From Ectothiorhodospiraceae bacterium (GTDB lineage Bacteria > Pseudomonadota > Gammaproteobacteria > Nitrococcales > Aquisalimonadaceae), in assembly GCA_007130525.1 (NCBI GenBank), contig SLSJ01000259.1:1-36488 (forward strand): a stretch of DNA of 36,488 nt, in the 5' to 3' direction. The translations under genes and the position numbers were made by a program. Positions 427 through 36,488 of the stretch are shown here, one piece after another (position 1 is the stretch's first letter; each line of letters starts with the position of its first letter). Under the pieces are notes generated by a model, which was not told the DNA's origin, ran no database searches, and saw only the letters and a list, made by a program, of their open reading frames with translations.

Positions 427-1758
427 GTGGTCGTGGCGGGCATGACCAACGGAGAGTTCAGCGGCTGGGGGCGCTACCCGCGGGCAACCGGTGCGCTCGT
501 CTGTCCAGCGGCTCCGGACCGGGTCCATTCCGCACTGCAGGCCGCCGGGGACGGCGACATCATTGCCCGCGGCATGGGCCGTTCCTATGGTGACAGCGCG
601 CTTGCTGCGACCATGCTCGACAGCGGCTTGCTGGACCATTACATCCATTTCGATCCGGACACCGGCGTGCTGGACTGCGAAGCTGGCGTGTCGCTGGATC
701 AGATCCTGCGGCTGCTGGTGCCGCAGGGCTGGTTTCCGCCCGTGACGCCGGGAACACGCTTCGTCACCGTGGGCGGCGCCATCGCCGCCGACGTGCATGG
801 CAAGAATCATCACCGTGACGGCTGCTTCAGCGCCCATGTTCCGGCACTGGAACTGGTGCTCGCCGACGGGTCCAGTGTTTGCTGTTCGCCGCGGGATAAC
901 AGCGACCTGTTCCGGGCCACATGCGGTGGCATGGGCCTTACAGGGATGATCACGCGGGCGACACTGCAAATGCGACGGATCCCCTCCAGCGTGTTGCGCG
1001 AGACGGTGATCCGGACCACCGATCTTGCCCAGACCCTGGCCCTTTTCGACGAGCATCATGATGCCGGCTACTCGGTTGCCTGGCTGGACTGCCTGGCGCC
1101 GACGGGTCGGCTGGGGCGGTCGCTGGTCATGCTGGGCGAGCACGACGACACCACGGACGTGCTGGATCTGCACCGCGTACCGCGACTGCGCGTGCCGCTG
1201 GATGCGCCGGCGGGATTGCTGAACAGGTACACCCTGCGGCTGTTCAATGCCCTCTACTATGCGCGCGGGCCCGGCCAGCCGACCACGAGGCGAGTGCATT
1301 ACGGAAGTTTCTTCTATCCGCTGGACGCCATACGCGAATGGAACCGCCTATATGGCCGCCGCGGCTTCGTCCAGTACCAGTTCGTGCTGCCGCGGGAAGC
1401 CGGAATGGCCGGGTTGACCCTGGTGTTGGAGCGCATCGCACGGTCCGGCCATGGTTCATTCCTGTCGGTGCTCAAGGCGCTGGGGCCGGCCAACGACAAC
1501 CATCTGTCGTTTCCAATGGAGGGCTACACGCTCGCCCTCGATTTCCGGGTCGAGCCGGCGTTGTTTGCGTTGCTCGATGAACTCGACGCCATCGTTCATG
1601 ACCACGGCGGCCGAATCTATCTCGCCAAGGACGCGCGCATGCAGCGCGAGTACGTACATCGGGGATACCCGTATCTGGATGTTTTCCGCGAGGTCAGGAT
1701 GCGCTATGGTGCGCACCGCCGATTTCATTCCCACCAATCCAGGCGCCTGGGGATCTAG
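427..1758 (+). CDS. FAD-binding oxidase, decaprenylphosphoryl-beta-D-ribose 2'-oxidase (DprE1)-like
   Basis: 443 aa. VAO-type FAD domain ('IARGMGRSYGDSAL', 'TPGTRFVTVGGAIAADVHGKNHH'). C-terminal 'LSFPMEGYTLALDFRV...GGRIYLAKDAR...' aligns from memory with mycobacterial DprE1 'FPMPGWNICVDFPI...GGRLYTAKDSR'. Confidence 0.88.
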   Translation: MVVAGMTNGEFSGWGRYPRATGALVCPAAPDRVHSALQAAGDGDIIARGMGRSYGDSALAATMLDSGLLDHYIHFDPDTGVLDCEAGVSLDQILRLLVPQGWFPPVTPGTRFVTVGGAIAADVHGKNHHRDGCFSAHVPALELVLADGSSVCCSPRDNSDLFRATCGGMGLTGMITRATLQMRRIPSSVLRETVIRTTDLAQTLALFDEHHDAGYSVAWLDCLAPTGRLGRSLVMLGEHDDTTDVLDLHRVPRLRVPLDAPAGLLNRYTLRLFNALYYARGPGQPTTRRVHYGSFFYPLDAIREWNRLYGRRGFVQYQFVLPREAGMAGLTLVLERIARSGHGSFLSVLKALGPANDNHLSFPMEGYTLALDFRVEPALFALLDELDAIVHDHGGRIYLAKDARMQREYVHRGYPYLDVFREVRMRYGAHRRFHSHQSRRLGI

Positions 1759-1867
1759 CCCGCATATCTCGCCGCCGCCCGTCCCGGCGCTCTCGCGAGG
1801 CGGGTGGGCGCGCGCGTGGTTGTTCCCACGTCCAGTGAGCCCAAAGCGCCGAGAGCGCGGGGACGGG
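1755..1867. repeat. Partial or divergent copy of the CTAGCCCGCATATCTC-ended element, followed by a long hairpin
   Basis: ctagcccgcatatctcgccgcc at 1755-1776 (21/22 match to the TIR of the 22457-22640 copy). 18-nt inverted arms cccgtcccggcgctctcg (1778-1795) / cgagagcgcggggacggg (1850-1867) with one mismatch. No opposite TIR found. Confidence 0.65.
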
Positions 1868-12381: not shown

Positions 12382-13833
12382 ATGCACATGTCCGCGGTGC
12401 AACGGATCCTGGGGCTGCTGCTGGTCCTGTTCAGCAGCACCATGCTGCCGCCGGTGCTGGTGGCGCTCATATATGCCGATGGGGGGCTGGTTCCCTTCGC
12501 GGTGTCCTTCGTGGCCATCCTGGTCGCCGGCGGCCTGCTCTGGTTTCCGGTCCGCGACGATCAGCACGATCTGAGAATCCGGGACGGCTTTCTCATCGTG
12601 GTCCTGTTCTGGACCGTGCTCGGCCTGACTGGAGCACTCCCGCTGCTGCTCGCGGCCGACCCCTATGTGTCGATTACCGACGCCGTCTTCGAGAGCCTCT
12701 CCGGGCTGACCACCACCGGGGCCACGGTGCTCACCGGTATCGATGAACTACCGCATTCGATCCGCTTCTATCGCCAGCAACTGCAATGGCTGGGTGGTAT
12801 GGGCATCATCGTGCTGGCCGTGGCCATTCTGCCCATGCTGGGGGTTGGCGGCATGCAGCTATACCGGGCGGAGACGCCGGGCCCGGTCAAGGATGCCAAG
12901 CTCACGCCCCGGATTGCCGAAACCGCGAAGGCGCTCTGGTATATCTACCTGAGCCTGACCATCGCTTGTGCCATGGCCTACTGGTTCGCGGGAATGGGCC
13001 TGTTCGACGCCATCGGTCACAGCTTCTCCACCGTGGCCCTGGGCGGCTATTCCACCTATGACGCCAGCATGGGCCACTTCGAAAACCCGCTGATCTCCAT
13101 GATCTGCGTGGTCTTCATGCTGATTGCCGGAATCAACTTCGCCATGCATTTCGTGGCCTGGCGAAGTCGTTCAGCCAAGCACTACCTGCGCGATACGGAG
13201 GTGCGCTGGTTCATCGGCATCCTGATTACGGTCGGTGTGACGGTCACCGTCACCCTGATAGTCACAGACCACCTCGGTGGCTGGGGCGAGACGCTGCACC
13301 ACGCCATCTTCCAGGCGGTGTCCATCGGTACCACTGCCGGATTCTCCACCGCGGAGTTCGACCAGTGGCCGCTGTTCCTGCCCGTATTGCTGGTGATGAC
13401 GGCGTTCATTGGCGGCTGCGCTATGTCCACAGGTGGCGGCATCAAGGTGATCCGTTTCCTGCTATTGCTCAAGCAGGGTTACCGGGAGATTCTGCGCCTC
13501 GTACATCCCCAGGCGCAGGTGCTGGTCAAGGTTGGCGCCCGGGCGGTGGACGAGCGAGTGATCGATGCTGTCTGGGGGTTTTTTGCGGCCTATATCGCGC
13601 TGTTTGCGCTCATGTTGCTGATCCTGATGGCCACCGGCCTCGATCAGGTAACGGCGTTCTCCGCCGTGGCGGCAAACATCACCAATCTCGGCCCGGGCCT
13701 GGGTGGGGTAGCCAGCCACTACGGCGATATAAGTTCCCTGGCGAAGTGGGTCCTTATGTTCGCCATGCTGCTGGGGCGCCTGGAGGTATTCACCCTGCTG
13801 GTACTGTTCACGCCGGCATTCTGGCGGCGCTAA
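12382..13833 (+). CDS. trkH: Trk potassium uptake system membrane subunit TrkH
   Basis: 483 aa; 'ESLSGLTTTGATVLTGIDELPHSIRFYRQQLQWLGGMGIIVLAVAILPMLGVGGMQLYRAE' and 'GGCAMSTGGGIKVIRFLLLLKQ'. Confidence 0.97.
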   Translation: MHMSAVQRILGLLLVLFSSTMLPPVLVALIYADGGLVPFAVSFVAILVAGGLLWFPVRDDQHDLRIRDGFLIVVLFWTVLGLTGALPLLLAADPYVSITDAVFESLSGLTTTGATVLTGIDELPHSIRFYRQQLQWLGGMGIIVLAVAILPMLGVGGMQLYRAETPGPVKDAKLTPRIAETAKALWYIYLSLTIACAMAYWFAGMGLFDAIGHSFSTVALGGYSTYDASMGHFENPLISMICVVFMLIAGINFAMHFVAWRSRSAKHYLRDTEVRWFIGILITVGVTVTVTLIVTDHLGGWGETLHHAIFQAVSIGTTAGFSTAEFDQWPLFLPVLLVMTAFIGGCAMSTGGGIKVIRFLLLLKQGYREILRLVHPQAQVLVKVGARAVDERVIDAVWGFFAAYIALFALMLLILMATGLDQVTAFSAVAANITNLGPGLGGVASHYGDISSLAKWVLMFAMLLGRLEVFTLLVLFTPAFWRR

Positions 13834-13885: not shown

Positions 13886-14068
13886 CCAGCCCGCATTTCT
13901 CGCCGCCCTTTTACTGCGGACGCCGATCCGCTCGCTGTGACGGGGCGTACTCCCTTTAGCCGGCTCGACGTAGTGTCAGCTACGCCTTCGCCGTCTTCCG
14001 GTCCGTGCCCCCGTCACAGCGGCATCTCGACGCCCTCGCGACGAACGGCGGTGAGATATGCGGGCTAG
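13886..14068 (-). repeat. MITE-like dispersed element, copy A (183 bp, opposite orientation to the 22457-22640 copy)
   Basis: Reverse complement of 22457-22640, about 92% identical by hand alignment (roughly 14 differences in 184). Ends ccagcccgcatttctcgccgcc ... ggcggtgagatatgcgggctag. Confidence 0.9.
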
Positions 14069-14078
14069 AATTCATCCT

Positions 14079-14396
14079 ATGCTCGAGCAACTCGAAAAAA
14101 TGCTGGCCGCCGGCCGGGACTCCGCCATGCTGCGCTTGACACTGGGCAACGGCTATCTGAAGGAGGGGCGGCCCGAGGAGGCGGTGCGGCACCTGCGTGA
14201 GGCCGTGCGCCAGCAGCCGGATTATTCTGCCGCCTGGAAGGCTCTGGGACGGGCGCTTGGGGAAGTTGGCGAGGTGGAGGAAGCTCTCTGCGCGTACGAC
14301 GATGGCATTCGGATTGCCCGGGAAAAAGGCGACCTGCAGGCCGCAAAGGAAATGGAGGTCTTTCGCCGCCGCCTTGAAAAGCGTCGCTCGGAGTAA
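14079..14396 (+). CDS. Small tetratricopeptide-repeat protein
   Basis: ~105 aa, TPR-like 'LTLGNGYLKEGRPEEAVRHLREAVRQQPDYSAAWKALGRALGEVGEVEEALCAYDDGIRIA'. The ORF-track start at 14058 lies inside the repeat; ATG 14079 (MLEQLEKML) preferred. Confidence 0.75.
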   Translation: MLEQLEKMLAAGRDSAMLRLTLGNGYLKEGRPEEAVRHLREAVRQQPDYSAAWKALGRALGEVGEVEEALCAYDDGIRIAREKGDLQAAKEMEVFRRRLEKRRSE

Positions 14397-21249: not shown

Positions 21250-21702
21250 ATGTTTGACGCCAGCTTCCTGGAGATTGTCCTGATCCTGCTGGTGGCGCTT
21301 ATCGTGATTGGTCCCGAGCGCTTGCCCAGAGTTGCCCGTACCATCGGGCTGTGGGTGGGGCGTGCCCGCGCCATGTTCAACACCATGCGTGACGAGGTGG
21401 AGCGGGAAATCCAGATCGATGAATTGCGCAAGGCCGAACGGGATCTGAAAGAGGATCTCGACCTGGGCCTGGACAAGGACGTGATGGCCGACGATCCGGC
21501 AGGCAAGCGCCGATCATCCGGCACGTCATCGGGCAAGGGCCGGTCGGGCGCGGCCCGGCCGACGGGCACGCGTGAGTCGAAGAAGACCGAGTCGGAGAAG
21601 ACCGGGGCGGACGAGGCCGGAAGGCGTCCTGCGTCGACCGCGGCCGCCGGTCATGATCAGTCGCAGGGTGAGTCCTCGGGTGGGGATGATGGAAAAGCCT
21701 GA
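21250..21702 (+). CDS. tatB: Sec-independent translocase TatB
   Basis: '[62 protein letters not shown]'. Confidence 0.95.
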
Positions 21703-22456
21703 TCTTGATCAGGACAAGCCGTTCCTGAGCCACCTTCTGGAAATGCGCACCCGGCTGATGCGCTCGCTGCTGGTTGTGCTGGTCGCCTTTCTGTTCATCT
21801 ATCCGTTCTACGACCAGCTGTTCACCCTGGTCTCGGAGCCGTTGCGCGCCGTGTTGCCCACCGGTGAATTGACGGCAATCAAGGTTGCCGGGCCGTTCCT
21901 CATACCCATGAAGCTGTCACTGGTGGCGGCGATTTTCGTCACGATCCCCTACCTGCTCTACCAGATATGGGCTTTCGTCGCGCCCGGCCTCTATCGACAC
22001 GAGCGGCAACTGGTTTGGCCGCTGATGATCTCCAGTTCGGCGCTGTTCTATCTCGGCGCCGCGTTCGCCTACTTCATCGTGCTGCCGCTGGTCTACGCCT
22101 TCTTTGCCGGGGTGACGCCGCTTGGCGTTCAATACCAGCCGGACATCGGCGAATACCTGAGCTTCGTGCTCACCATGCTGGTGGTCTTCGGCATAGCATT
22201 CGAGGTACCGATCGCCACCCTCTTGTTGATCCGTACCGGGGCGACCACCCGCGACGCGTTGGCCGCAAAACGTCCCTACGTGATCGTGGCGGCCTTCGCC
22301 GTGGGCATGCTTTTGACGCCGCCGGATATCATCTCCCAGGTCATGCTGGCGATTCCGGTGTGGTTGCTGTTCGAACTGGGGCTGGTTTTGTCGCGCTGGT
22401 ATCGGGTTTCGGGGCGGGAAGCCACGGAGAACTCTGTCGACCCGACGGACACGTGA
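21686..22456 (+). CDS. tatC: Sec-independent translocase TatC
   Basis: '[34 protein letters not shown]', '[37 protein letters not shown]', '[30 protein letters not shown]'. Confidence 0.96.
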
Positions 22457-22640
22457 CTAGCCCGCATATCTCACCGCCGTTCGTCACGCGGGCGTCGAGA
22501 TGCCGCTGTGACGGGGGGCACGGACCGGAGGACGGCGAAGGCGTAGCTGACACTACGTCGAGCCGGCTGCAGGGAGTACGCCCCGACACGGCGAGCAGAT
22601 CGGCGTACGCAGTAGAAGGGCGGTGAGATATGCGGGCTAG
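22457..22640 (+). repeat. MITE-like dispersed element, copy B (184 bp, perfect 22-bp terminal inverted repeats)
   Basis: Left end CTAGCCCGCATATCTCACCGCC, right end GGCGGTGAGATATGCGGGCTAG (exact reverse complement). Same sequence family as 13886-14068. Confidence 0.92.
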
Positions 22641-34125: not shown

Positions 34126-36488
34126 ATGGCCATGTCCGAATCCGTCAATCGCGACTTCCGCAAGTCGCTGTCCTGCGGTGGGCTCGACTACTTCGACGCG
34201 CGCGCCGCGGTCGATGCCATGCGGCCCGGCGCCTACGCGAGCCTGCCGTTCACCGCCCGCGTTCTGGCCGAGAACCTGGTGCGGCGCTGTCCGCCGGCGG
34301 AACTGGAGGACTGCCTGCGGCAGATCGTGGAGCGACGCCGGGACCGGGACTTCCCGTGGTTTCCGGCTCGCGTGGTCTGTCACGACATCCTGGGCCAGAC
34401 CGCGTTCGTCGACCTGGCCGGACTGCGGGACGCCATCGCCGAACAGGGCGGCGATCCGGCCCGGGTGAATCCGGTGGTACCCACCCAGCTCATCGTTGAC
34501 CACTCGCTGGCGGTGGAGCATGCGGGCTTCGAAAAGGACGCCTTCGAGAAAAACAGGGCCATCGAGGAGCGGCGCAACGCCGACCGCTTCCACTTCATCA
34601 ACTGGACCAGGCAGGCCTTCCGCAACGTGGACGTGATACCGCCTGGCAACGGCATCATGCACCAGATCAACCTGGAGCGGATGTCAACGGTGGTGGAATC
34701 GCGGGACGGGGTGGCCTTCCCCGACACCCTGGTGGGCACCGACAGTCACACTCCGCACGTGGACGCGCTGGGTGTGCTGGCCATCGGCGTCGGCGGCCTG
34801 GAGGCGGAGAGCGTGATGCTGGGACGGCCGTCCTACATGCGCCTGCCGGACATGGTGGGCGTGGAGCTCACCGGCAGGCCCGGGCCGGGCATCACCTGCA
34901 CGGACATCGTGCTCGCGCTCACCGAGTTCCTCCGCCGCGAGCGGGTGGTATCCGCCTACCTGGAATTCTTCGGTGAGGGGGCGGCGGCGCTGTCCGTGGG
35001 CGACCGCGCCACCATCTCCAACATGACCCCGGAGTTCGGCGCCACCGCCGCCATGTTCCACATCGATCAGCAGACCCTCGACTACCTGAGCCTCACGGGG
35101 CGCGATCCGGAGCAGGTGAAGCTGGTGGAGACCTACGCGAAGACCGTGGGTCTGTGGGCGGATGACCTGAACACAGCGGAATACGAGCGGACGCTGCGCT
35201 TCGACCTGTCCACGGTGGTGCGCAACATGGCCGGCCCATCCAGCCCCCACAAGCGGGTGGCCACCACGGATCTGGCCAAGGCCGGCATCGCCGGCACCGT
35301 GGAGCAGCCGGGCGACGGCCGCATGCCGGACGGCGCGGTGATCATCGCGGCCATTACCAGCTGCACCAACACCAGCAATCCGCGCAACGTGATCGCCGCC
35401 GCTCTGCTGGCGAAGAAGGCCAATGCCCTGGGGCTCGCCCGCAAGCCCTGGGTAAAGACCTCGCTCGCGCCCGGCTCCCGGGCGGTGCAGCTCTACCTGG
35501 AAGAGTCGGGCCTGCTCCCGGAACTGGAACGGCTGGGATTCGGCATCGTCGGCTTCGCCTGCACCACCTGCAACGGCATGAGCGGCGCCCTTGACCCGGC
35601 GATCCAGCAGGAGATCATCGACCGCGACCTCTACGCCACGGCGGTGCTCTCCGGCAACCGCAATTTCGACGGCCGCATCCACCCTTACGCGAAGCAGGCC
35701 TTCCTGGCCTCTCCGGCACTGGTGGTGGCCTATGCCATTGCCGGCACGGTGCGTTTCGACATCGAGAAGGATGCCCTGGGCACCGATGCCAACGGCCGCC
35801 CCATCACCCTGAAGGAGCTCTGGCCCACGGATGCCGAGATCGACGCGGTGGCGGCCGAACACGTGAAGCCGGATCACTTCCGCCGGGTCTACACTCCCAT
35901 GTTCCGGCCGCGGGCCGAGAACGCCGAGCCCGTATCGCCGCTGTACGACTGGCGGCCCCGGAGCACCTATATCCGCCGGCCGCCCTACTGGGAAGGCGCG
36001 CTGGCCGCGCCGCGCACGCTCACCGGCATGCGGCCGCTGGCAGTGCTGGGTGACAACATCACCACCGATCACCTCTCGCCGTCCAACGCCATTCTGCGGG
36101 ACAGCGCCGCCGGGGAGTATCTGGCGTCCATGGGCCTGCCGGAGGAGGACTTCAACTCCTACGCCACCCACCGTGGTGACCACCTCACCGCCCAGCGCGC
36201 GACGCTGGCCAACCCCAAGTTACTGAACGAGATGGTGCGCGACGAACGCGGCGCCATCCGCCAGGGCTCGCTCACACGGCTGGAGCCGGACGGCACGGTC
36301 ATGCGCATGTGGGAGGCCATCGAGACCTACATGGAGCGCGGCCAGCCGCTGATCATCATCGCCGGTGCCGATTACGGTCAGGGTTCCTCCCGGGACTGGG
36401 CGGCCAAGGGTGTGCGGCTGGCCGGTGTCGAGGCCATCGTGGCCGAGGGCTTCGAGCGCATCCACCGCACCAACCTGGTGGGCATGGG
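34126..36488 (+). CDS. acnD: Fe/S-dependent 2-methylisocitrate dehydratase AcnD (3'-truncated by window end)
   Basis: Manual translation: 'MAMSESVNRDFRKSLSCGGLDYFDARAAVDAM...PTQLIVDHSLAVEHAGF...GTDSHTPHVDALGVLAIGVGGLEAESVMLGRPSYMRLPD...ITSCTNTSNPRN...GADYGQGSSRDWAAKG'. Frame open to the last base, so absent from the ORF track. Confidence 0.94.
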   Translation, partial: MAMSESVNRDFRKSLSCGGLDYFDARAAVDAMRPGAYASLPFTARVLAENLVRRCPPAELEDCLRQIVERRRDRDFPWFPARVVCHDILGQTAFVDLAGLRDAIAEQGGDPARVNPVVPTQLIVDHSLAVEHAGFEKDAFEKNRAIEERRNADRFHFINWTRQAFRNVDVIPPGNGIMHQINLERMSTVVESRDGVAFPDTLVGTDSHTPHVDALGVLAIGVGGLEAESVMLGRPSYMRLPDMVGVELTGRPGPGITCTDIVLALTEFLRRERVVSAYLEFFGEGAAALSVGDRATISNMTPEFGATAAMFHIDQQTLDYLSLTGRDPEQVKLVETYAKTVGLWADDLNTAEYERTLRFDLSTVVRNMAGPSSPHKRVATTDLAKAGIAGTVEQPGDGRMPDGAVIIAAITSCTNTSNPRNVIAAALLAKKANALGLARKPWVKTSLAPGSRAVQLYLEESGLLPELERLGFGIVGFACTTCNGMSGALDPAIQQEIIDRDLYATAVLSGNRNFDGRIHPYAKQAFLASPALVVAYAIAGTVRFDIEKDALGTDANGRPITLKELWPTDAEIDAVAAEHVKPDHFRRVYTPMFRPRAENAEPVSPLYDWRPRSTYIRRPPYWEGALAAPRTLTGMRPLAVLGDNITTDHLSPSNAILRDSAAGEYLASMGLPEEDFNSYATHRGDHLTAQRATLANPKLLNEMVRDERGAIRQGSLTRLEPDGTVMRMWEAIETYMERGQPLIIIAGADYGQGSSRDWAAKGVRLAGVEAIVAEGFERIHRTNLVGM

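Follow-up and report, generated by a model that had tools for sequence, protein, structure and literature searches.

A high-copy hairpin repeat in an Ectothiorhodospiraceae genome is very probably a non-autonomous element of the IS1380 family

What kind of element occurs twice, in opposite orientations, in the 36,488-nucleotide stretch of DNA analysed here (the window), which is the entire contig C65 of the 2.65-Mb, 287-contig assembly of an Ectothiorhodospiraceae bacterium (the host)? The element is 184 bp long and carries no gene. Its two copies, A (13886-14068) and B (22457-22640), are reverse complements of each other at 92.9% identity (BLASTN, 182 columns, 1 gap, E 1.4e-73; aligned span 22457-22638 to 14068-13888, reverse orientation), in agreement with the roughly 92% given in the initial annotation. 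The match stops at CTAG-type ends and the flanks are unrelated, which excludes segmental duplication as the origin of the pair. The 22-bp terminal inverted repeats (TIRs) described earlier are perfect in copy B, with 22 uninterrupted terminal pairs, but the left arm of copy A carries three mismatches (CCAGCCCGCATTTCTCGCCGCC versus CTAGCCCGCATATCTCACCGCC). The coordinates are collected in Table 1.

Table 1. Coordinates of the two putative MITE copies, their target-site copies and an element remnant in the window
Feature	Position	Strand	Remark
Left target-site copy of copy A, CCAG (mutated CTAG)	13886..13889	.	CTAG/TTAG duplication seen on IS1380 copies
Core of the putative MITE, copy A, 175 bp, CCCGC...GCGGG	13890..14064	-	Orientation opposite to copy B
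Right target-site copy of copy A, CTAG	14065..14068	.	
Left target-site copy of copy B, CTAG	22457..22460	.	Directly 3' of tatC TGA (ORF 21572-22456)
Core of the putative MITE, copy B, 176 bp, full-length imperfect hairpin	22461..22636	+	Apical stem GCGTAG/CTACGT
Right target-site copy of copy B, CTAG	22637..22640	.	
One-ended element remnant (CTAGCCCGCATATCTCGCCGCC...)	1755..1786	+	Similarity to element

Copy A lies between a trkH-type gene (ending at 13833) and a TPR-protein gene (starting at 14058 or 14079). Its right TIR (window 14050-14081) holds GGTGAG-AT-ATG, with the ATG at 14058 in frame with the TPR gene, and copy A may, to judge by this arrangement, supply the start codon of that gene (the next ATG is at 14079). 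At the remnant, the TAG stop of the upstream oxidase-type ORF (427-1758) falls within the CTAG. A further end-like match at 34509 is weak, lies within coding sequence and looks like chance.

The two copies belong to a large population. The 19-bp end occurs 546 times in the host assembly with up to two mismatches (274 forward and 272 reverse), against 0+0 for a reversed-pattern control, and chance matches are therefore excluded. These ends correspond to ~270 elements, or ~1.9% of the assembly, which disposes of the possibility, raised at the outset, that no additional genomic copies exist. At least 43 copies are near full length, with 40 of 448 candidates scored. A sample of 620 kb of host stretches, selected partly for carrying copies, holds 72 complete elements, 50 of them exactly 184 bp, plus 39 unpaired ends. 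All but 17 of the latter lie within 200 bp of the end of a fetched stretch, usually a contig end, and the element has probably fragmented much of the host assembly. Seventy host copies differ from their consensus by a median of 3.8%.

Host copies are mostly intergenic: with coding-like ORFs called by a hexamer model (trained on the host's own long ORFs), 8 of 69 insertion junctions fall within them, compared with 444 of 600 random positions. No element ends were found in three genomes of the host's genus. Aligned with the host at the trkH-TPR junction, two family members (G011 and G009) show an empty site in place of copy A, albeit with a spacer too diverged to reveal the target word. The suggestion that the pair could invert the 8.4-kb segment between its copies finds no evidence. 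The two are members of a family of ~270, each 184 bp long and 93% identical to the other, and the two family members without the element have kept the gene order seen at copy A.

The true ends of the element can be read from an IS1380 insertion sequence in an Arenicellales genome. Its 1784-bp cores are 100% identical in three copies (read at loci L120, L147, L187 and L198, of which L147 is the same place as L198); the flanking words are TTAG..TTAG in one copy and CTAG..CTAG in the others. Because identical cores sit between either pair of words, the four outermost bases are a duplication of the target, and CTAG as a part of the TIR is ruled out. The element proper is therefore ~176 bp long (CCCGC..GCGGG; CCCGCATATCTCACC...GGTGAGATATGCGGG), with a YTAR/CTAG tetranucleotide as its target. 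IS1380 copies elsewhere are flanked by TTAA..TTAA (G163) and TTAG..TTAG (G155). Thirty of the 72 host copies have CTAG on both sides, TTAG..TTAG and CTAA..CTAA are also seen, and most of the others are mutated at one end. Where elements abut they have one 4-bp word in common, at four host loci (L007, L012, L048 and L062) as well as in a Holophagae MAG (L135) and a Myxococcales MAG (L180), as expected if the second copy enters the duplicated CTAG of the first.

Per-site change in the host target words, at 11.3%, is about three times that in the TIR (3.3%); CCAG at 13886-13889 is one example. The change is mainly T to C on either strand (CCAG or CTGG), as very-short-patch repair would produce, and CTAG occurs in the sampled host genome at 0.5 of its Markov expectation.

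Both IS1380 and piggyBac elements have 4-bp target-site duplications and 5'-CC..GG-3' ends (PMC10045372), and the element, with CCCGC..GCGGG termini beside CTAG, has the same organisation. Judged by the ends, its parent family is IS1380. An intact 1.78-kb IS1380 on the Arenicellales chromosome has the ends CCCGCATATgTCACC / GGTGAGATATGCGGG, and its right end together with CTAG is exactly the 19 bp of the MITE. IS1380 elements with intact transposase genes on Stutzerimonas and P. putida plasmids end in CTAG adjoining CCCGCATTTCTCACAG, and an intact IS1380 transposase gene in G163 lies between matching ends, CCCGGATATCTCACC. Two further genomes (G348 and G364) hold intact IS1380 elements with TTT-variant ends (CCCGCATTTCTCACC; the right end in G364 is off by one base), and their TIR matches, among those listed, are mostly of the TTT variant, like the resident IS. 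In the host itself, contig C260 holds a relict IS1380 transposase, truncated and with an internal TAA (PF13701, E 3.4e-16), which starts ~100 bp inside the end CTGGCCCGCATATCTCACCG. The terminal 15-16 bp of this C260 end, CTGGCCCGCATATCTCACCGATAGG, are the same as those of the MITE, and its subterminal sequence GATAGGATRGAAATAGGCCTC is also found at an IS1380 in G156, a genome in which a 184-bp hairpin MITE is also present. The host assembly, 86.8% complete and in 287 contigs, yielded no intact IS1380 transposase. An autonomous IS with the same TIR, which the initial annotation had proposed to look for, thus exists intact in other genomes, whilst the host has only the decayed relict.

Transposase and TIR also tend to occur together. 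Among 369 Gammaproteobacteria genomes spread evenly over the class, PF13701 is present in 16 of 34 TIR-bearing genomes and in 43 of 335 others (Fisher p 6e-6, a statistic which ignores relatedness); with above-cut-off matches and the host left out, the figures are 13 of 33 and 30 of 335 (p 1e-5). The match is missing in 18 of the 34, and PF13701 was not found in seven relatives or in G038. The latter, a complete genome of the same order, nonetheless has 158 ends, or ~79 copies, and MITEs therefore outlive their transposase. Derivation by internal deletion from the IS1380 elements compared was rejected, as the MITE interior is unlike them beyond the terminal ~19-30 bp. No relevant description of IS1380 MITEs, their CTAG targets or covariation in their hairpin was found in the open-access literature searched.

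Relatives of the element are widely scattered. The exact string CTAGCCCGCATATCTCACC occurs, among the matches listed, in more than 80 contig stretches from Thioalkalivibrio, Arenicellales, Halieaceae and other Gammaproteobacteria, Alphaproteobacteria, Acidobacteriota/Holophagae/Thermoanaerobaculales, Gemmatimonadetes and Myxococcales; many of these contigs belong to MAGs and may be misbinned, though the elements are very unlike one another. Elements of exactly 184 bp, some pairs of them only ~48% identical, recur in Gammaproteobacteria, Acidobacteriota and Gemmatimonadota MAGs, and others with the TTT end variant are 184 bp long in G283, G369, G320 and G210 and 183 bp in G253. The window element is 88% identical to one of T. 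sulfidiphilus, and that of G038 is 89% identical to one from another gammaproteobacterium. Close relatives are without them, and horizontal transfer is the likely explanation. Myxococcales and Gammaproteobacteria also hold a second class, 167/168 bp long, which shares the TIR but differs in its interior (L107, L114, L132, L146, L148, L165, L180 and L291-L295). In G062 (L079 and L082) a shifted end type, CCCGGAATTCTCACC / GGTAAGAAATCCGGG, recurs at ~177-bp spacing, and these elements are possibly, from the look of their ends, a sister TIR group.

From end to end, each window copy forms an imperfect palindrome, ~71% identical to its own reverse complement. Folded as RNA, copy B reaches -124.9 kcal/mol (z -13.2 against shuffles) and copy A has a z of -8.3. 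When 15 elements of 184/185 bp, drawn from ten genomes, are aligned, standard pairs fill 94.0% of the cells of the predicted full-length hairpin, against 31-42% when the pairing is slid by 1-3 columns, and the covariation score is 0.359, compared with 0.132+-0.012 for shuffles and at most 0.100 for slid pairings. The hairpin was predicted from the alignment on which it is scored, a slight bias toward it which the size of the slide effect makes unimportant. Two-sided changes are present in 27 of 52 pairs, the apical stem occurring as GTAG/CTAC, GTAC/GTAC, GTGC/GCAC and ATAG/CTAT, and in 30 of 62 pairs of the 167/168-bp hairpin. Longer elements with the same TIR (~214-335 bp) mostly lack an end-to-end fold, so the hairpin is not a trivial outcome of the TIRs. 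An asymmetric internal loop (columns 27-36 with 153-161) is kept in the ten genomes of the alignment, its unpaired bases being invariant or nearly so.

Within the host, both partners of a pair have changed in 15 cases, 6 of which disrupt the pairing, where independent change would give 11.7; paired interior sites change at 3.4% and unpaired ones at 5.2%. Host copies drift almost neutrally, the hairpin being needed, it seems, for spreading rather than by each copy. As single copies drift while jumping lineages keep the hairpin, the constraint is placed on propagation. It is a tentative suggestion, and one we would sooner doubt than accept, that these elements form a lineage of IS1380-type MITEs spanning several phyla and dependent for their mobility on a full-length hairpin of fixed length (184 bp and, separately, 167/168 bp).

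Three other accounts of these observations deserve consideration. The covariation could be a mutational by-product, with intra-arm template switching correcting quasi-palindromes during replication or transposition and no selection acting on the hairpin. Such switching is a well-established source of mutation at quasi-palindromes and would yield two-sided changes; however, it should also erase bulges, yet the asymmetric internal loop is kept, and host copies have little excess of two-sided changes. This explanation, which concerns the hairpin and leaves the MITE and IS1380 assignments untouched, is unlikely, albeit a serious contender. Host selection for a structured RNA or regulatory DNA acting in mRNA stability, termination or protein binding would account for the extreme stability of the fold (z -13.2), the strong covariation between genomes and the way in which copies hug gene ends (tatC, trkH-TPR). 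Such selection is hard to reconcile with two-sided changes in the host that are near independence, often breaking the pair, with paired interior sites that change only slightly less than unpaired ones, or with the orthologous junctions and the three same-genus genomes which lack the element; an Rfam scan of the window gave no match. Maintenance by host selection is thus very improbable, although single copies may have been exapted secondarily.

Scarcely more credible, and if anything less so, is the REP/BIME-like alternative of the initial annotation, a repeat moved on single-stranded hairpins by a RAYT (Y1 tyrosine transposase). The element does resemble REP/BIME sequences as a high-copy intergenic palindrome, sometimes in abutting groups, with CTAG near the hairpin foot, and Y1_Tnp proteins are present in 11 of 13 TIR-bearing genomes tested. 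Two TIR-bearing genomes are nevertheless without a RAYT, including the Arenicellales genome which holds the intact IS, and none of the eight RAYT loci examined is flanked by element ends (one weak match has four mismatches). The lone RAYT-type (Y1_Tnp) gene of the host (L249, G000:C286) has none of these repeats nearby. REP units are defined as palindromes of 20-40 bp with a GTAG-type tag (PMC3733652), whereas the elements here are 184 bp long, carry a CTAG target duplication and have exactly the ends of IS1380, whose transposase is of the DDE type.

The element is very probably a non-autonomous IS1380-family MITE with a ~176-bp core, a 4-bp target duplication and a hairpin that seems to be required for propagation. 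This rests on in silico evidence: ends shared with intact IS1380 elements, the target duplication of the IS, copy number, intergenic bias, empty orthologous sites and compensatory changes in the hairpin. The MITE class named in the initial annotation is thereby retained, for a short, TIR-bounded, dispersed element with discrete ends and no transposase gene. An IS1380 transposase acting in trans would recognise the TIRs and move the element, which would enter a YTAR/CTAG tetranucleotide and duplicate it. Copies may have multiplied in a burst while an active IS1380, now only a relict in the assembly, was present, and their median divergence of 3.8% suggests that the burst has since slowed. The full-length hairpin would be required for propagation and not for the function of each resident copy, possibly serving when the element is cut, replicated or protected while single-stranded.

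A number of parallels can be drawn with known systems. IS1380-family elements (e.g. IS1380A, ISPme1 and ISEcp1; PF13701) have the same CCCGC.. termini and 4-bp duplications (CTAG/TTAG/TTAA), and in some members 15-19 bp of the TIR are identical to the MITE's. The MITE differs from them in lacking a transposase gene, in its length (184 bp versus ~1.8 kb), in forming one hairpin and in an interior unrelated to the IS compared. Among bacterial MITEs, RUP, NEMIS, Nezha, ERIC and YPAL have IS parents that are known or suspected (PMC3733652). These are likewise non-coding, 70-300 bp long, bounded by TIRs, hairpin-forming and often beside genes; unlike them, the present element has an IS1380 parent and keeps its length classes and hairpin across several phyla. 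The piggyBac elements share with it a 4-bp duplication, CCC.. termini and kinship with IS1380 (PMC10045372), their TTAA target having reported variants TTAG and CTAA (PMC10813416), but they are eukaryotic and tied to the MITE through the parent transposase only.

A high-copy repeat is thus tied to a definite transposase family, and with its true ends and target site fixed, copies can be annotated correctly. The constraint on these MITEs is unusual, combining hairpins of constant length and compensatory changes between phyla with drift once inserted, and the need for a folded intermediate in IS1380-type transposition becomes testable. If mobility does depend on the hairpin, selection during transposition would preserve structure while sequence diverges, and this would imply a single-stranded or cruciform step, or recognition of the hairpin, in a piggyBac-related system thought to act on double-stranded DNA.
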